Of a stretch of 64,000 nucleotides of DNA, positions 17,793-63,423 are shown one piece after another. Numbering within the stretch: the stretch's first letter is position 1; every line of letters begins with the position of its first letter. The stretch covers positions 62,001 through 126,000 of the forward strand of contig NC_050728.1 of NCBI RefSeq assembly GCF_014133895.1. Reading direction: 5' to 3'. The notes under the pieces are model-generated. The model was not told the origin of the DNA. It ran no database searches and saw only the letters and a list, made by a program, of their open reading frames with translations. The DNA comes from Torulaspora globosa. Taxonomy: Eukaryota; Ascomycota; Saccharomycetes; Saccharomycetales; Saccharomycetaceae. The translations under genes were made by a program, and so were the position numbers.

Positions 17793-17969
17793 TTACCGGA
17801 TTCTATAAGACTCTTCTGAGAAGCAGATGTACGGCCAAGAATTCTACAGTTCGTCCCAAGTCGTCTCGTTTAATCGTCTCATAAATGTGTAATTTTATCA
17901 GGAGTTATATGCTCTTGTTGATTAGCCGCGCTGTGTGCCCACGGTCGCACGTTCGAGAGCGAAGGCCGT

Positions 17970-18668
17970 GTCTGCTTTGTCTTGGCATCGTTTCATATTG
18001 CTCGGATCCAGATGTTGAAGGCGAAACTTCAAAGGCATCCAGGAACATCGACAGAGTTCGCTACCGAGATGCTGTGTGCTGTTTCAAGCTGTCACAGATA
18101 TTGCGAACGATCGAGGCTTGACTGGCTCCCCCGGTTCTTCCATCAAAGTGAGAGATAATCGGATGTTTCATCATTATCGATAACTTAGAATAGCACAAAT
18201 AGTGACAGGGCAAAATGGCCTGGCAATCTGCCCCTCACGATCTTGTGGCATTGTTTGATCATTTGAAACCATTTTGACGCTCAAGCTCTGCACCAATTTT
18301 GAAACAACGTACCACTACATTTGCACCATCCCTGTGGTGTGTAAAAGAGCGACTGATTTCGTCTCAATGCAGACCAATGAACGGTGATCCAGAACTCATT
18401 GGTGGTTTGGTACCAGGTACAAAGGTTTTCCTAGCCAACTGGAAGACCGTGCCAATAGAAAACATCAAAGTTGGTGATGAAGTTCTCACATCTAATGGCG
18501 GCAAAAGTCGAGGCTGTGTTAAGAGGTGACCATGATTTGGTCACAATTCAACAAAAGACCAACCACTACGCACACCTGCAAGATCCCTCGGTGGGAAAAC
18601 CTTGGGGCATAATCGAAATGACATGCTCCAAGAGACAACCACTGATTTTGAGCACAAACAGCAAGCTG
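17970..18668 (+). mobile_element. WHO-A: truncated WHO-type homing element remnant
   Basis: From about 18105 to 18665 the sequence is about 90-95% alike to 27090-27660 (WHO-B), in the same orientation, covering the upstream control region, the TATA-like gtgtaaaagag and the first third of the endonuclease reading frame. Patchier likeness (ctttgtcttggca and nearby) begins near 17970. Similarity stops at about 18665, in the middle of the Hint domain; no LAGLIDADG part, zinc finger or FBA1 tail follows. It lies between GLK1 and GID7, which are neighbours in related yeasts. Left edge is approximate. Confidence 0.75.
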
Positions 18669-25285: not shown

Positions 25286-26869
25286 ATGAAGCGAGCTACA
25301 TTGGTGAGAATGTTTACAGAAGGGGGCATGAAGATACCAAATAGCGAGGCAGGTTTTAGTACAGTGCCGGTGCGAACGCAATCTGGCGCGATCAGCAGTA
25401 GAGTGAGGGGCCTTCCGTATCGTATGAAGACTGGAATTGGCATGTACAAGAGTGCGTGTTCTTCAGTGCCGAATAAGGGCGGAAAGAAGAAGACGTGGGT
25501 GGATGAGTTTGATCATTTTGGACAGCTGCGCAAACTGCGGTGGCCTGGCTTGGCGGATTCGCACTCTTGCTTTAGAGATGTGGTCGAGAAATACCTGGCA
25601 GATGTGGAGGTGCTATATCGGGAACTGAACGCTGTCAGCGCTCGGAGTCTGAACGAAAAACTCGATGCCGTCAAGGAACGATGGGTTGCAGAGCATGGCT
25701 CTTTGCCAGAAGTGTCTACAGGTAAGGAGAGAAAACGGGAAAAAGTGCGGAAGCAAGAGAGAGTCAAGGCAAGAGACGGCAAGCAATTGGGGGTCGCCTC
25801 GGAGGTCCAACTGACCGTGGAAGCAAACAAACAGCTATTAGAGCAGGAGGACGAAAAGAAAATGCGTAAACAGTACGACCAGGCCCTGAGGCAGGTGAAG
25901 GAAAACCACTGTCCTACAGTTTATGCAAACCCCGGTACGTCGAATTTTGATTATCTCACAAACAGCATCCGCCTAATGAGTACCAAAAAGACAATTTGTT
26001 TCTCGCTGGACGTTGAGGCGTATGAGTTCGATAATGATGTTGTCACAGAAATTGGTATTGCCGTTTATGATCCCAGAGAAAACATCAATCCCCTGGTGCC
26101 GCTCACGAGAAACTATCATCTGATCATATCGGAAGCGCTGCATCTGAGAAACAGGAAGTGGGTGTGCGACTTCAAGGACTGCTTTCTACTGGGCGAGAGC
26201 TTCGTGCTGAGTCTACATGAGTGTGTGGAGTTCGTGCAAGCGCTGGTCGACTACTACATGACGCCTCAAACTGCGGAAGACAGATCCTGGTCGCGAGCGT
26301 TTGTCGGTCACAACTTGCAGGGAGACTTGCGCTGGTTGAGGAAAATGGGCGTCAAGGTCCCAGCTGACGGAGACCTCGACTACACCCTACAAAAGGCTGA
26401 TCTGAAGGCAGACGTCGAGAAGGAAGAGCCTATCTTCGTACTGGACACAGAGAAGCTTTACAGACTGTGCTATGGAAGCAAAGGCAGCAACTTGGGGCGC
26501 CTGCTTAGGTTGTTCCGCATCCCGCATGCCTTTTTGCACAACGCGGGAAATGATGCTCACTACACGCTTAAACTACTGATGCATATGTGCGATGTGAATT
26601 TTAGGAAACAGTATGGGATGGACAATCTCGAGGACATGTCCAGGAAGATCAATCAATGGATCGATCGCGAAAAAGAAGAGCCCAAGGTTTTGCCGATGTC
26701 GTATGCCGTTTCGGTGGTAGATGCCACCAGAAAACGTCATGCGGTGTCCAAGAACGACAATACTGCACGAAGGAAGCAAGCCAAGGATCTCGTCCCGCAG
26801 ACTGAGTTCGGGGGGTCGCGATATTTCGACTCTGCCCGCGAGGCATTCAGCAGTACACTTTGTAAGTGA
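25286..26869 (+). CDS. GFD2: Gfd2/YDR514C-family RNase H-fold protein; C-terminus possibly altered by WHO-B
   Basis: 527 residues from the ATG at 25286 (MKRATLVRMF); the frame is open from a TTG at 25268. A charged coiled-coil region is at about 140-205. The C-terminal half is a DEDD-type exonuclease-like fold: FSLDVEAYEFDNDVVTEIGI, FVGHNLQGDLRWL and LHNAGNDAHYTLKLL carry the acidic and histidine positions. Gfd2 was found as a dosage suppressor of an mRNA-export mutant; its activity is not settled. The last codons (ACA CTT TGT AAG TGA) lie within a sequence that closely matches the FBA1 stop-codon region seen in WHO-B and WHO-C, read in another frame, so the native C-terminus may have been replaced. 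Confidence 0.87.
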   Translation: MKRATLVRMFTEGGMKIPNSEAGFSTVPVRTQSGAISSRVRGLPYRMKTGIGMYKSACSSVPNKGGKKKTWVDEFDHFGQLRKLRWPGLADSHSCFRDVVEKYLADVEVLYRELNAVSARSLNEKLDAVKERWVAEHGSLPEVSTGKERKREKVRKQERVKARDGKQLGVASEVQLTVEANKQLLEQEDEKKMRKQYDQALRQVKENHCPTVYANPGTSNFDYLTNSIRLMSTKKTICFSLDVEAYEFDNDVVTEIGIAVYDPRENINPLVPLTRNYHLIISEALHLRNRKWVCDFKDCFLLGESFVLSLHECVEFVQALVDYYMTPQTAEDRSWSRAFVGHNLQGDLRWLRKMGVKVPADGDLDYTLQKADLKADVEKEEPIFVLDTEKLYRLCYGSKGSNLGRLLRLFRIPHAFLHNAGNDAHYTLKLLMHMCDVNFRKQYGMDNLEDMSRKINQWIDREKEEPKVLPMSYAVSVVDATRKRHAVSKNDNTARRKQAKDLVPQTEFGGSRYFDSAREAFSSTLCK

Positions 26870-26885
26870 GTTTTATGACAAATGA
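26852..26885 (+). repeat. FBA1-like stop-codon region at the left edge of WHO-B
   Basis: The stretch acactttgtaagtgagtt (26853-26870) and the following ttatgacaaat match the FBA1 stop region at the right end of the same element (29388-29425, acactctgtaagtgagtt then tattatgactaaat) and, inverted, in WHO-C (61862-61895). About 28 of 32 positions agree, allowing a 3-4 nt gap. In FBA1 frame it would read Thr-Leu-stop. It forms the join between GFD2 and the element. Confidence 0.6.
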
Positions 26886-27121
26886 ATAGCTTAAGTAAAC
26901 TGTCGGTTAAGTGATAAGTGATTGAAATGCAAGCTTCAAAGGTCGTCAGTTGAGCATGTTCGGGTAAAAGTCATGGGTGTCTCAGCTTTGTCTTGGCAAC
27001 GATCCAAATTCAATCCTGACGTTGGGCAATAATAAAACGATGAAACCCAAACGCCTTGGCGAGCACAGTGATAGGTCGCTTCCGCATCAGATGTTGCAAA
27101 ACGATCGAGGCTTATTTGACT

Positions 27122-27345
27122 CTCTCGGTTCTTCCATCAAAGTGAGAGATAATCGGATGTTTCATCATTATCGATAACTTAGAATAACAGAAATAGTGAC
27201 AGGGCAAAATGGCCTGCCAATCTGCCTCTCACGATCTTGTGGCATTGTTTGATCATTTGAAACAATTTTGACGCTCAAGCACCAATTTTGAAACAATCTA
27301 CTACTGCATTGCACCATCTCAGTGGTGTATAAAAGAGCGACTGAT
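27122..27345 (+). promoter_or_regulatory. Conserved upstream control block of WHO-A and WHO-B
   Basis: Nearly identical to 18138-18365 of WHO-A. It contains gtgagagataatcggatgtt, the pheromone-response-like heptamer TGTTTCA, atcattatcgataacttaga, a TTTGATCATTTGAAAC segment and TATAAAAG at 27328. WHO-C keeps only the TATA-proximal part (gtgtaaaagagcgactgatt, minus strand near 63160-63180). Strong sequence retention in non-coding DNA may reflect recency rather than function. Confidence 0.45.
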
Positions 27346-27373
27346 TTCGTCTCATTCGGCCAGCCAGGGTTAA

Positions 27374-29140
27374 ATGAAGCAATACAGAACAATGAACGGT
27401 GATCCAAAATTCATTGGTGGTTTGGTACCAGGTGCAAAGATTTTCCTAGCCAACTGGAAGACCGTGCCAATTGAAGACATCAAAGTTGGCGATGAAGTTC
27501 TCACATTTAATGGAGGTGCGGCAAAAGTCGAGGCTGTGTTAAGAGGTGACCATGATTTGGTCACAATTAGACAAAAGACCAAGCACCGCGCACACTTGCA
27601 AGATCCCTCGGTGGGGCATAATCGAAATGACATGTTCCAAGAGACAACCACTGATTTTGAGCACGAAGCAGAGGATCAGGATAGCCAAGGGGCGTGGAGG
27701 TAGGAACGTTAACGTGTCTCAGCTGGCTGATCATCAAACAGCGGATGGTCGAATTATCAAGATCATCAAGGAAAAATCGAGACGATTCCGTAGCCAATGG
27801 TACTGCGGAGCGACGGAAGATGCTTTAATTGGCAATGTGAGGCAGACGACTTGTCCGGCTACTTCTACGATGATCTCACAACCTATATCGATAGAGATAC
27901 CTGTCTTGGGCCATGCTTGGAACAATGTTTCGAAAGGAAAATTACTGCAGGGCAGCTTGAAGCCATGGCATGGTTGTTAGGGTTCTGGATTGGTGATGGT
28001 TGCAGAGAAGGAGCAAGATTCGCTTTGCACTCTGAAGACCATGATGTGAACACCAGACTTGAGAAGAATGCAGACGTTTGGGGTATGACTCTCAGAATCG
28101 AGCGTCAGAAGGAGGGCTTGGGGGAAGTAGGATTCCTTCACACCTATAATGGCGCGGTACGTTATTGGAACGTAAACAACCCGCTTGTGAAGGTTCTGGA
28201 AGGATTAAAATTCTACGAAAATGGACAACGAAATGGTCTGAAGAGCGTTCCACTATTCATGCAAACAGAGCAAATAGTGGTGCGTGAAGCCTTTCTCGCA
28301 GGATTGATTGATTCGGACGGCCATTGCCGTATCCGTTACGGATGTATTTCTGTGCAAATTGCAACTGTCTACCGGCCTATTAGAGACGGGATAACCTTCA
28401 TAGGTCGTTCTCTTGGTTTGACTGTCTCCACCCATTTCTGTGGCGCTCACTTTTATGAACGTCATGGACAAAATAGGAGTGATACATGGTATTTCCACTT
28501 ATATGGTAGGACAAATGATGAAACACTCTGGTCGATACTGAACAGATGCTCTTGTGAAAGGAAGCGAAACCCGCAAATCCAGCACTGCAGGGACAGAGAT
28601 TTTGAAGAATTTGACTCCGATTACCAAGCGGAGGAAAATGAAAATGATCCTGAGGACAATGACGATTTATCAGGTATAAGGGAGAGCTTTGAAGATGATC
28701 TTGAAGATGATCCGGAAGAACAACAAGATGGCACACTCAATTTTGGCAAGTTCAGGTTTGAAATTATCCCAGGTCGTAAAGATGCTGTCATAGGACTGGT
28801 ACTGTCGGGTACCTCTAACCGAACTTTTGTCACGGATGATCAGATTGTATGTGCAGCTGCCGAATTGGTTACGGAAAGACTTGAATTGAGTACGGAAAGA
28901 CTTGAATCAAGACCGTATTTCAGAAGGAGGTGCCTATCATGCCGTACAGAAACAGCATCAAAGTGGTACAAGGTTCCCTGGTTGGGGGATGTTCTAGACA
29001 GGTTATGCAGGGCCTGTTGGGTTGCTTATTCGCGCACTCACATGCGTTGTAGCAACGATCTTTGCAACTGGGTCTTCAGGAGAAGGGAAGTTGCTCCTCG
29101 CCGGTGTAAGCGATGTAGGAGTAGTCCACTGCAGGGATGA
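27374..29140 (+). pseudogene. WHO-B: HO/VDE-like LAGLIDADG homing endonuclease, frameshifted
   Basis: Three overlapping frames together cover an HO-like protein. The first (from MKQYRTMNGDPKFIGG, also Met 27392) is an intein-like Hint domain with DHDLVTIRQKTKHRAH. A shift near 27605 (11-nt deletion relative to WHO-A) leads to IIEMTCSKRQPLILST and TADGRIIKIIKEKSRRFR. A second shift at about 27785-27800 leads to the main 447-codon frame with both LAGLIDADG motifs, LLGFWIGDG and LAGLIDSDG, each with its catalytic Asp. An acidic insert and a C-terminal zinc-finger region with CLSC, CRAC, CSNDLC and CKRC pairs follow, as in HO. The position of the intein's first Cys is not Cys, in line with a non-splicing HO/WHO protein. 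Confidence 0.85.
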
Positions 29141-29148
29141 AATTGAAT

Positions 29149-29262
29149 GTACCATCCTGTTGATCTTCCAGATCATCTTCAAAGCTCTACATTATACCTG
29201 ATAAATCGTCATTGCTTCATTTCACAAGAACATCTATTCAGTATCGACCTGAGTGGTTCATG
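29149..29262 (-). repeat. Inverted duplication of internal WHO-B sequence
   Basis: 29149-29212 is the reverse complement of 28660-28737 (acidic-insert region, minus one 15-bp unit), for example tatacctgataaatcgtcat. 29213-29262 is the reverse complement of about 28512-28562 (tcacaaga-catct-ttcagtat). The roughly 95 bp that separate the two source pieces are missing. The inverted block joins directly to FBA1 coding sequence at 29263. Confidence 0.8.
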
Positions 29263-29400
29263 GGAGGAAATCCCTCGGGAGAAGACAGTCCAAACAAGAA
29301 GTACTTTGACCCAAGAGTCTGGGTCAGAGAGGGCGAAAAGACCATGTCCAAGAGAATTGCCGTTGCCTTGGAAGACTTCAGAACCACCAACACTCTGTAA
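29263..29400 (+). pseudogene. FBA1: FBA1 3' coding fragment (last 45 codons)
   Basis: Reads GGNPSGEDSPNKKYF then DPRVWVREGEKTM and ends FRTTNTL-stop, matching the C-terminus of class II fructose-bisphosphate aldolase of yeast (S. cerevisiae ends with DPRVWVREGEKTMGAKI and FRTTNTL). The frame is intact through the TAA stop at 29398-29400. No promoter or aldolase body is attached; upstream is antisense WHO sequence. In known WHO elements such a piece serves to replace the end of the FBA1 target gene after cleavage. Confidence 0.92.
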
Positions 29401-29435
29401 GTGAGTTTTTATTATGACTAAATAAGTTTACTTTT

Positions 29436-30077
29436 GTTGAAATATTTTACTGAATGATTGACGTTTAAGCAAAGGTGTCTCCACCTCCGCAGGACAGCTC
29501 GCTAACGCGTTCCACATCGCATCAAACACACGCGAGTACCCTGTTGCCACAGACCTGCGACGATGGGCCGGCGCCCCCTGGGGGCATTGTGGCATTATGA
29601 CCCCTGGTGGCCCCCTGGTCAACATGAGCACCCGCATATTAGCTTGTCGTATGCTAATACGCGGCATTTAACCTTACATGATCGTTCCTGGCAACTGCAG
29701 GAGACAGGAAACTGAAAAGCGGCTTCCCGAAAGGAGCACTTTTTCCCTTTTCGTACATTACAACCTGCAAAGGGAAAGAAGATCTTCAATTTAGGTGCGT
29801 GCCTCCCAACAAAGTTGAAACTATACACTCTAAAAAGCTAGCCACTCCATATACGGTCTATTCATGCCAAAAGAGGAAAGAGTTGGTGCCTACAGGGATG
29901 CCAACAGGAAAATCACCAGGTGAAATGCAGTACGACAGAGTTCAAGGATCTGGCGCGGATGCTGGCAATCAGGTGGTAAACACCCGCATCGTTTCCTGGG
30001 CTCGATAATACCATATAAAGAGTAGGGAGAACTTATGATAACTTCAGAGAACTAGTGTGAAAAGAACCAAGTTCAAA
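29436..30077 (+). other. Intergenic region before the GPI protein gene
   Basis: About 640 bp with no gene recognised. It has a GC-rich patch of C and G runs (29565-29620, for example ggcgccccctgggggcattg). A TATA-like catataaaga (30012-30021) lies about 60 bp before the ATG at 30078. Chance ORFs only. Confidence 0.45.
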
Positions 30078-31706
30078 ATGGTGTCTAAAACTATCTTTGG
30101 ATTATTGGCATTGGCCACCGCTTCTGTGGCTAATGCTGCTTACACTTTCACTGTCCCCATCCAGTATCAAAGCGAAATTGTCGTTTCTTCCTACTTTAGA
30201 AACGGTAATGACAAAGTATCCGTGACCGCTAGTAATGACGGTTTGCAAATTACTGTTGATGCGGACACTAGCCAGGTCTGTAACATTTTGGAGTCAGGTA
30301 TGGTTGTCTATGCTGTTGATGGCGCTACCGCGAACACCTTGTTGTCGTGGAATCAATACGACGTTTTCCACTTGGTTGATGGCAACGGAAACAATGTGCA
30401 ATGGACCTCCACCAATGCGCAGACTTGCCCAGTGGCTGGTAGCTCCGTTGCAGGTGGCTCCTCTGTGACCGGCTCTTTTAGCGCTACTGCATCTCAAGGC
30501 GGTTTTTCAGTTAGTGGCTCATCTCAAGGTGGTTTTTCAGTTAGTGGCTCATCTCAAGGAACCGTTTCTACTGCCTCTTCTCAAGCAGGCTCGGCAATAA
30601 TCAAATCTTCGGGTGCCTCTTCCGCTGTCAGTTCCTCTCAGCTAACTGGTGCCGCATCCCTCACTCAGCTTATCACATCTTCCTCGTTTCCTTTGGCTCC
30701 TTCTACTACCATGTCTGTTACCACCAAGACAATCAACGGAGTTGTCTCTGAGTACACTACCTATTGCCCATTCACCACCGCTGGTAAGATGGAATCTGTT
30801 GTGACTTATGCTAACGTGTTCACTACTACCATCAGCGGCAAAGAGTCTGTCTACACTACTTTCTTCCCGGTTTCGACCCAATTGAAAGCCTCCGCCACTG
30901 CTACTGGTATCAAGGCTACTGCAGCACCAGCACTGACGACAGTGACCACGACGATCAACGGCATCGAGACTGTGTACACTACCACATGTCCTTTGTCCAA
31001 GGGTTCGTATGTCACCAGCGCTGAAGGTTCAACCAGTGTGATTACCACCACCATCAACGGAAAGGAGACTGTTTTCACCTCAGTCTTCCCAGTGGCAACT
31101 ATCACAGGCTCGAAGTCAAGTACTACTTCTGTCGTCACTACCACCGTTAACGGCCAAGAGACTATCTACACCACTGTTTGCCCAGTGGGAGCTGCTTCTG
31201 GTTCTCAACTAGTTCCAAGTACTACCTCCGTCGTTACCACCACTGTCAACGGTCAGCAGTCCATTTACACCACTGTCTGCCCAATCCAGACTTCCGCAGT
31301 CGGAAAGACCACGGTTGTTGTAACCACTTCCGAAAACGGTTCGAAGACTGTTTACACTAGCGTTTATCTGGTCACCTCGAAGGGTCAAGCTGCCCAGCAG
31401 ACCTCCGCTGTCGCCATCACCTCAAACAGTCAAAAGGCTGTCTACAGCAGTGTGGTTCCAGCCAACTCCGTTGCTACTGGGCAGGTTACTACCGTGATCA
31501 CCACCACTCAAAACGGTTCCAAGACAGCTTACACCACCACTGCACAAGCTACAGCTGGTGCTGGCTCGTCTATCGCTGTGCAGTCCTCTGGCCACTCATC
31601 TTCGCTAACCGCCTTGATCAGCACCTACCAAGGTGCCGCTGCTGCAGCCTCGAGTCCAATGCTGACAATCTTGGCTCTGATTGCTGGTTCCGTCTTCTTG
31701 GCTTAA
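30078..31706 (+). CDS. GPI-anchored, Thr/Ser-rich cell-wall protein with repeated YTTxCP units
   Basis: 542 residues from the ATG at 30078. A signal peptide (MVSKTIFGLLALATASVANA) is followed by a compact N-terminal domain of about 110 residues (AYTFTVPIQYQSEIVV... with two cysteines) that I do not recognise. Ser/Gly repeats QGGFSVSGSS follow, then nine imperfect units of the form TTTxNGxxxxYTTxCP. The C-terminus is hydrophobic (SSPMLTILALIAGSVFLA), as for GPI attachment. The YTTxCP motif occurs in yeast wall proteins such as Ccw12, Sed1 and Egt2. It has no counterpart at this position in S. cerevisiae and stands directly after WHO-B. Wall location is well supported; an adhesin role is only possible. 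Confidence 0.75.
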   Translation: MVSKTIFGLLALATASVANAAYTFTVPIQYQSEIVVSSYFRNGNDKVSVTASNDGLQITVDADTSQVCNILESGMVVYAVDGATANTLLSWNQYDVFHLVDGNGNNVQWTSTNAQTCPVAGSSVAGGSSVTGSFSATASQGGFSVSGSSQGGFSVSGSSQGTVSTASSQAGSAIIKSSGASSAVSSSQLTGAASLTQLITSSSFPLAPSTTMSVTTKTINGVVSEYTTYCPFTTAGKMESVVTYANVFTTTISGKESVYTTFFPVSTQLKASATATGIKATAAPALTTVTTTINGIETVYTTTCPLSKGSYVTSAEGSTSVITTTINGKETVFTSVFPVATITGSKSSTTSVVTTTVNGQETIYTTVCPVGAASGSQLVPSTTSVVTTTVNGQQSIYTTVCPIQTSAVGKTTVVVTTSENGSKTVYTSVYLVTSKGQAAQQTSAVAITSNSQKAVYSSVVPANSVATGQVTTVITTTQNGSKTAYTTTAQATAGAGSSIAVQSSGHSSSLTALISTYQGAAAAASSPMLTILALIAGSVFLA

Positions 31707-61824: not shown

Positions 61825-61884
61825 ATCGCCTGATCTTCTCAAACGACGTGAAAGTAAGTTTACTTTAGTCATAATAAAAGTCAC

Positions 61885-61993
61885 CTACAAAGTGTTGGTG
61901 GCTCTGAAGTCTGCCAAGGCAACGGCAATTCTCTTGGACATGGTCTTTTCGCCCTCTCTGACCCAGGCTCTTGGGTCAAAAAGTACTTCTTGT
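61885..61993 (-). pseudogene. FBA1: FBA1 3' coding fragment in WHO-C
   Basis: On the minus strand, after a one-base frame error near 61975, it reads the aldolase end: REGEKTMSKRIAVALADF and TNTL-stop (TAG at 61887-61885). About 35 codons, shorter than the 45 in WHO-B, and joined to endonuclease sequence at the NKKYF codons. The stop is TAG rather than TAA as in WHO-B, so the two FBA1 tails have diverged. Confidence 0.88.
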
Positions 61994-63149
61994 TAATTCG
62001 TCAAAGTCTCTGTCCCTGAGGTACACCAATTTCTGGTTTCGCTTCGTTTCACAAGAGCATCTGTTCAGGATCGATCTGAGTGTTTCATGATTTGTCCCAC
62101 TATACAAGTGGAGAATCCATATATCACGCTCGTTTAATCCATTACGCTCATTAGACTTAGCGCCACGGAAATTGGTGGAGACAGTCAAACCAAGAGAACG
62201 ACATGAAGTCTATACCGTCTCGCAATAGCCATCAGAATCTATTAAGCCTGCGAGAAAAGCTTCACGCACCACTATTTGCTCTGTTCGCATGAATAGAGGA
62301 ACGCTCTTGGGCCATTTTTTTTTTCCATTTCCCAGGAATCTTAGTCCTTCGAGAAACTTAACTAGCGGGTTGTTTTTGTTCAAATTACGTACCGCGCCAT
62401 TATAGGTGTGAAGGTATCCTGTTGCCTTAAAGCCCTCCCGAAGCTCGATTCTGAGACTCATACCCCAAACTTTTGCATTCTCCCGAAGTCTGGTGTTGAC
62501 ATCGTCATCTTCAGAGTGCAAAGCGAAGGCTGCTCCTTTTCTGTAACCATCACCAATCCAGAACCTTAACAACCATGCCATGGCTTCAAGCTGCCCTGCA
62601 GTAATTTTCCTTTCGAAACATTGTTCCAAGCATGGCCCAAGACAGGTATCTCTATCGATATAGGTTGCAAAATCATACTAGAAGTAGCCGGACAAGTCGT
62701 CTGCCTCACATTGCCAATTAAAGCATCTTCCGTCGCTCCGCAGTACCATTGGCTACGGAATCGTCTCGATTTTTCCTTGATGATCTTGATAATTCGACCA
62801 TCCGTTGTTTGATGATCAGCCAGCTGAGACACGGAAACCTCCACGCCCTTTCTTGGCTATCTGGATCCTCTGTTTCGTCCTCAAAGTCAGTTGTTGTCTC
62901 TTGGAACATGTCATTTCGATTATGCCCCACCGAGGGATCTTGCAAGGGATCTTGCAAGTGTGCGTGGTTGGTCTTTTGTCGAATTGTGACCAAATCATGG
63001 TCACCTCTTAACACAGCCTCGACTTTTGCCGCACCTCCATGAGATGTCAGAACTTCATCGCCAACTTTGATGTTTCAATTGGCACAGCCAACCTTTGTAC
63101 CTGGTACCAAACCACCAATGAACGGTGGTTCACCGCTGATGCTCTGCAT
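61994..63149 (-). pseudogene. WHO-C endonuclease remnant
   Basis: Starts at ATG 63149 (MQSISGEPPFIGGLVPGTKV) and is soon broken by a deletion of about 20 nt relative to A and B. DHDLVTIRQKTNHAHLQDP follows with a 12-nt tandem duplication (agatcccttgca, near 62940). The 11-nt deletion and the second frame error seen in WHO-B are both present. The LAGLIDADG part keeps LLRFWIGDG and LAGLIDSDG, then an about 60-nt deletion after the second motif breaks it. The last recognisable piece is CSCETKRNQKLVYLRDRDFD before the FBA1 join. No zinc finger. Confidence 0.83.
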
Positions 63150-63423
63150 TGAGACGAAATCAGTCGCTCTTTTACACACCACAGGGATGGTGCAATGTAG
63201 TGGTACGTTGATTCAATTGGGGCTACGAAGACGGATGGTGCCAAAGAGACGAGTGATTGATGAAGAGGTTAGTTTATCGGTAAGATGAGAGGAAGGATGG
63301 GTGTAGCCAAGACACCCATAACTTTTACCCGAACATCCTCAAGCTTTGCACGTTTCAACCACTTATCGGGCCTCGCGCTGCCGACGACGTACTGAGGCAG
63401 CAGGTGCTGGCCGCCAGCTTCCG

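Follow-up and report, generated by a model that had tools for sequence, protein, structure and literature searches.

The window analysed here is a stretch of 64,000 nucleotides on contig C2 of the Torulaspora globosa genome, and directly behind its GFD2 gene it contains a dead WHO10 element of approximately 2.7 kb (26855-29573, the right end being approximate). The features of this element and of two related relics in the window, WHO-A and WHO-C, are collected in Table 1. The initial annotation had already placed an element here, at 26852..29435; its presence was borne out, and both edges were moved to the positions given above, of which the left one lies inside the GFD2 reading frame. Between the element and GRX lies a gene of cell-wall type (30078-31706), which has flocculin type 3 repeats.

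Table 1. Features of the WHO10 element behind GFD2 and of related relics in the window.
Feature	Position	Strand	Basis or remark
WHO-A: truncated relic of WHO10 (dispersed), flanked by GLK1 and GID7	17947..18658 (approximate)	+	gene names by eye
GFD2, host gene, 527 aa	25286..26869	+	ORF; DEDDh_C domain 3.5e-42; name by eye and synteny
Element left end: last FBA1 codons, stop, 3' spacer	26855..27255	+	matches to the C7 FBA1 region
WHO10 gene, 5' part, Hint-like start	27374..27703	+	stop closes the frame after a frame-breaking deletion
WHO10 gene, 3' open part, 447 aa	27797..29140	+	homing endonuclease domain and zinc finger
Founder junction: inverted WHO gene pieces (28657-28743, 28518-28565) joined to the FBA1 fragment	29140..29262	+	
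FBA1 3' fragment: last 45 codons and stop, frame open	29263..29400	+	92% to C7 FBA1
FBA1 3' flank	29401..29478	+	match to the FBA1 locus stops at 29478
Captured scrap, like C1:733492-733579	29477..29573	+	part of a macro-domain gene; present in the RKM5 copy too
WHO-C: relic of WHO10 (dispersed) that has an FBA1 tail, next to TFS1	61851..63342	-	gene name by eye

At the left edge, the segment 26855-26876 is identical to the FBA1 stop region on contig C7 (22/22 nucleotides, C7:163199-163178), and positions 26860-27255 are 92% identical to spacer DNA of the FBA1 cluster (C7:161539-161140). The final five codons of GFD2, stop codon included, consist of this FBA1-like sequence, and one or two codons at their start may be native too; the GFD2 frame crosses the FBA1 stop region in a different phase and terminates at the next TGA. 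At C4:169642-169777, 136 bases of FBA1 3' flank are found without a WHO gene, and they supply the last codons and the stop of another gene's frame (262 codons), much as at GFD2. At the right edge, the segment 29477-29564 matches the interior of a macro-domain gene (C1:733203-733973; Macro_2, 4.8e-79) at 90% identity. A duplicated 3' end of GFD2 was also sought to the right of the element (29381-30077), where only matches of 9-16 bases were obtained, one of them being the FBA1 stop region.

The HO/VDE-type endonuclease sequence between these ends (27374-29140), which had been described as HO/VDE-like from the start, was confirmed by several lines of evidence. The open part of the frame has a Pfam Hom_end match (2e-22), its best solved relatives are PI-SceI/VDE (1.3e-25), and both LAGLIDADG motifs are present (LLGFWIGDG and LAGLIDSDG). 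Additionally, three CxxC motifs of a C-terminal zinc finger can be read by eye in the translation, and no Pfam zinc-finger match was found for the window WHO frame; WHO elements are described as having a C-terminal zinc finger with three to five CxxC motifs (PMC7282813). The combination of Hint and LAGLIDADG parts that marks WHO elements is also found, the Hint part of the window copy being disrupted by deletions and Hom_end being scored in the open frame; the intact copy at RKM5 matches both Hom_end_hint (4.1e-26) and Hom_end (2.8e-23). Against that RKM5 copy, the window gene has four frame-breaking deletions, of 11, 37, 23 and 1 bases, as well as in-frame gaps, and is thus dead. The intact endonuclease frame expected of an active mobile element is thus missing from the window copy, and the frame is open in three other copies. 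A protein search of the genome with the window frame listed 29 pieces, the query among them; three of these, 74-78% identical to it, lie in open frames of 614-625 aa. This rules out a chance resemblance.

An FBA1 3'-end fragment stands beside the WHO gene, as is characteristic of WHO elements, and the FBA1 tail proposed in the initial annotation was thereby verified, codons, stop and flank alike. No FBA1 gene exists in the 64-kb window, as had been stated earlier: when FBA1 was located genome-wide, the aldolase family gave a single match, at C7:163198-164220, whose 3' end is 92% identical to the tail in the window. Downstream of it lie a WHO10-like pseudogene and another WHO piece, which is 47% identical. 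Because the only FBA1 found is on contig C7 with a WHO cluster of its own, the GFD2 copy is away from home, and it does not have the location downstream of a full-length FBA1 that is typical of WHO elements. A former presence of FBA1 at the GFD2 site was considered and rejected as unsupported, given that the single match to FBA1 is on C7, next to a separate WHO cluster, and that GFD2 and GRX1 are neighbours in S. cerevisiae as well (YCL036W-YCL035C).

Besides FBA1, at least 14 dispersed places hold a WHO10 element or pieces of one, namely the GFD2 copy and 13 further places; protein, FBA1-tail and spacer matches were merged by hand by place, and the count is a lower bound. WHO sequence is present at eleven of them: C1:941k, C1:1517k, C2:80k (WHO-A), C2:89k (the GFD2 copy), C2:124k (WHO-C), C2:650k, C2:709k, C2:1065k, C2:1264k, C3:226k and C6:248k. 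The remaining three, C2:287k, C4:169k and C8:565k, have a tail, flank or spacer piece only, that on C8 being an isolated stretch of 58 bases from the spacer upstream of WHO10 (C8:565511-565568). Weak protein matches at C3:1002k, C4:102k, C4:36k and C5:368k were excluded from the count; the second of these is likely the HO gene of the genome (C4:101400-103600, 581 aa, 37% identical over the matched part, assigned by eye). The genome matches confirm that WHO-A and WHO-C belong to the same dispersed family as the GFD2 copy, as had been supposed. Contig C2 carries 8/14 places on 14% of the genome (binomial, 2.2e-4, or 1.8e-3 after allowing for eight contigs), and 6/12 when the three window copies are counted as one (0.0035). 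Both MATalpha1 matches are on this contig too, one at 25 kb and the other at 251 kb. WHO-A adjoins GLK1 (name by eye), as does a published WHO12-family gene in Naumovozyma castellii (PMC7282813); a GLK1 fragment was looked for in the gap holding WHO-A, and only 10-19-base matches were found.

Three cassettes of approximately 2.5 kb in the genome have open endonuclease frames, of 614, 622 and 625 aa, at sites that we read as CMC4, RKM5 and MIN6. These intact copies are 76-79% identical to one another, with pairwise dN/dS values of 0.56-0.66. When the flanks at CMC4 were joined by eye, they gave a CMC4 domain covering 2-62 of its 62 positions (Pfam 2.4e-21), which indicates a clean insertion that split the gene without apparent loss. 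The RKM5 site has a Methyltransf_16 match (2.8e-5) beside a gene of the aspartate-semialdehyde dehydrogenase type, and to the right of this copy an open frame (C3:229108-229617) resembles, by eye, the end of a Ty3/gypsy integrase. The MIN6 site was named by eye and has no Pfam match; nearby are a SOD1-like gene (by eye) and a gene with a glutamine-amidotransferase domain that resembles CTP synthase (5.7e-36).

In the main text of Coughlan et al. (eLife 2020, PMC7282813), the WHO10 insertions of T. globosa CBS764 are likewise given as CMC4, RKM5 and MIN6, and since the three intact copies sit at this published trio, the genome analysed here is very likely that of CBS764. According to the same source, T. 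globosa WHO10 has lost its specificity for FBA1 and is called a more general mobile element. Intact WHO10 is reported there at five non-FBA1 loci in two strains, with an FBA1 fragment immediately downstream of each; the five copies are 72-80% identical and strain-specific, and most insertions carry scraps of other genes, possibly fossils of earlier host sites. The dispersal that the initial annotation had presented as new for a one-locus system had therefore been published already in 2020, as the escape of WHO10 from FBA1. By title and abstract, WHO elements are the subject of just two of the literature matches listed, this paper and its Insight (PMC7282806), and the main text of the former does not mention GFD2. 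As in the WHO10 family, the window frame is 74-78% identical to the three intact copies, the loci are dispersed, and an FBA1 fragment lies immediately downstream; the assignment to WHO10 is based on these loci and this anatomy. The location away from FBA1 is no bar to it, because the paper makes WHO10 the known exception (PMC7282813). The GFD2 copy is thus a real, dead, dispersed WHO10 element.

The dispersed copies share several features with one another. The founder junction, an inverted WHO piece joined to FBA1, is present in seven of the nine dispersed copies that have an FBA1 tail (the window, C3:229k, C2:709k, C1:1517k, C1:941k, C2:1065k and C2:287k copies, whose matches start at 29201-29214), and the tails of the other two, C2:650k and C2:124k, are cut off within the FBA1 fragment. 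This junction is absent from the C7 FBA1, whose match begins only at 29266. Moreover, end sequence is common to four pairs of copies: window/RKM5, WHO-A/CMC4, C1:941k/C2:650k and WHO-C/C2:287k. The first pair shares the macro-domain-like scrap, which terminates the RKM5 copy as well and is common to both up to 29573; this end also matches the macro-domain gene. For the other three pairs, no third place was listed in a genome search (E up to 1). In that search, the left 150 bases of WHO-A were found elsewhere only in the CMC4 copy and the right flank of WHO-C only at C2:287 kb; the sequence shared by WHO-A and CMC4 is, by eye, in part similar to the spacer of the element itself and may be a spacer variant rather than a foreign scrap. 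Scraps that resemble the neighbourhood of other copies were also identified: in the CMC4 copy, 85 bases match (88%) a PDI-like gene (by eye) that adjoins the MIN6 copy, and in the RKM5 copy, 87 bases match (97%) the 3' end of TFS1 (by eye), the neighbour of WHO-C. At C6:249154, C2:1067559 and C8:565568, sequences with differing flanks start within two bases of element position 26918-26919.

The copies at C1:941k and C2:650k have an identical internal deletion that removed both LAGLIDADG motifs, the deletion junction joining the same two WHO10 points (C1:941940/941935 and C2:650358/650353); a non-autonomous derivative is a possible explanation of this form. Additionally, the C1:941142-942798 relic and the RKM5 copy (C3:226493-228946) have identical runs of 660 and 380 bp with divergent DNA between them, whereas identical runs reach at most 126 bp in the remaining 44 pairs (ten copies, 45 pairs in all). 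Such runs could in principle be artefacts of assembly or polishing, and gene conversion between resident copies, in either direction and without a new insertion, can also account for the deletion in common and for the 660-bp run. In a tree of the ten copies, two of seven inner branches are strong and four are open, and the WHO10 pseudogene of the FBA1 locus is placed beside C2:650k, within the dispersed copies. This position is no proof of a single founder, as it could reflect several escapes or a return to FBA1. The tree is unreliable because the copies are mosaics, and phylogeny was abandoned as proof of the direction of copying.

These features bear on where the copies came from. Each dispersed copy might have arisen straight from a WHO10-bearing FBA1 locus by mis-homing, the shared features then being those of the FBA1 allele present at the time; homing at FBA1 would be expected to produce the observed order (spacer, WHO10, FBA1 fragment), and the FBA1 cluster retains a WHO10 pseudogene that groups among the dispersed copies in the tree. 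We regard this origin as unlikely, however, given that pairs of dispersed copies have end sequence in common that is not from FBA1, that the founder junction is absent from FBA1 in this genome, and that the deleted form is present twice. Taken together, the junction, the shared ends, the scraps, the deletion form and the identical runs lead us to favour copying between dispersed copies, by insertion, conversion or both. The earlier proposal that the cassette had been moved or copied to a new place accordingly stands as far as its distance from FBA1 is concerned, and the evidence leans to copying between dispersed copies and not to a direct move from FBA1.

For the GFD2 element itself, we think it probable from the sequence features that a WHO10 cut at the end of GFD2 was followed by filling of the break through copying of another dispersed WHO10 copy. 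One founder would have left FBA1 after a homing event, since the order spacer, WHO10, FBA1 fragment is the one predicted by the published homing model. The endonuclease would then have cut DNA at the GFD2 end, a candidate site, with an intact WHO10 protein presumably making the break in trans; the break would have been filled from another dispersed copy, as would those of later copies, and short templated patches may have been added at the ends during this later copying. The break at CMC4 has a WHO/HO-like core, CGC next to ACACTTTG (by eye), and the 8-mer ACACTTTG, with one change in one copy, also begins the FBA1-like left ends of the window, C1:941k and C2:650k copies. A common target motif is kept as no more than a lead, as the MIN6 break has no CGC plus ACACTTTG core of the kind seen at CMC4 (by eye).

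It is also conceivable, though improbable, that WHO10 DNA spread passively as filler at breaks of any origin, with no cutting of the new site by WHO10. Very short pieces without a WHO gene, such as the 58 bases at C8:565k and the 136 bases of FBA1 flank at C4:169k, would fit such a course, and scraps of unrelated genes at the ends are likewise expected from passive filling, whatever the origin of the break. However, three cassettes of approximately 2.5 kb with open endonuclease frames, as well as five published intact copies that are strain-specific (PMC7282813), are more than expected of filler, and the CMC4 gene was split without apparent loss. An assembly chimera at GFD2 is very improbable: repeats of mostly 82-93% identity could mislead an assembler, but the same anatomy recurs at several loci with end joins that differ from copy to copy, and the published T. 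globosa genomes were built from PacBio and Illumina reads (PMC7282813), which applies here if this genome is among them.

A wider reading of cut-and-fill spread, which we put forward tentatively and with some doubt, is that WHO10, once a homing element, has become a transposon-like family: an intact protein would cut new sites, any dispersed copy could serve as template with template switching, deleted non-autonomous copies would spread in trans, and hosts such as GFD2 would gain FBA1-derived ends. The main text of PMC7282813 leaves the route of WHO10 integration unclear, as homologous flanks are absent, and break repair templated by dispersed copies is a concrete suggested answer to how WHO10 enters non-homologous sites. 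Should this be true, it would illustrate how an element of the homing type, the type that gave rise to the mating-type switch HO, can become a general mobile element. To the published picture, the present analysis adds the at least 14 places, the C2 bias, the founder junction, the paired end sequence, the scraps resembling the surroundings of other copies, the deletion form at two loci and the 660- and 380-bp runs.

Compared with known systems, the family described here is like published WHO10 in the identity of its intact copies (76-79%, published 72-80%), its non-FBA1 loci, its downstream FBA1 fragment and its end scraps (PMC7282813). Unlike the intact WHO10 copies of that paper, the GFD2 copy is a pseudogene, located at GFD2, with its left edge in the host reading frame. 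With the FBA1-linked WHOs of Torulaspora and Lachancea it has in common the Hint, LAGLIDADG and zinc-finger parts and the FBA1 3' sequence on either side. It is not beside a full-length FBA1, as they are, and therefore cannot home by swapping the FBA1 3' end; its FBA1 fragment begins at codon 316 of 360, whereas many published fragments begin near base 670-680 (PMC7282813). Like HO, it combines an intein-like endonuclease with a zinc finger, although HO, in contrast to WHO, is immobile (PMC7282813). The VDE/PI-SceI intein provides the closest solved structures to the window endonuclease, but it lacks a zinc finger, resides within VMA1 and is removed by splicing (PMC7282813).
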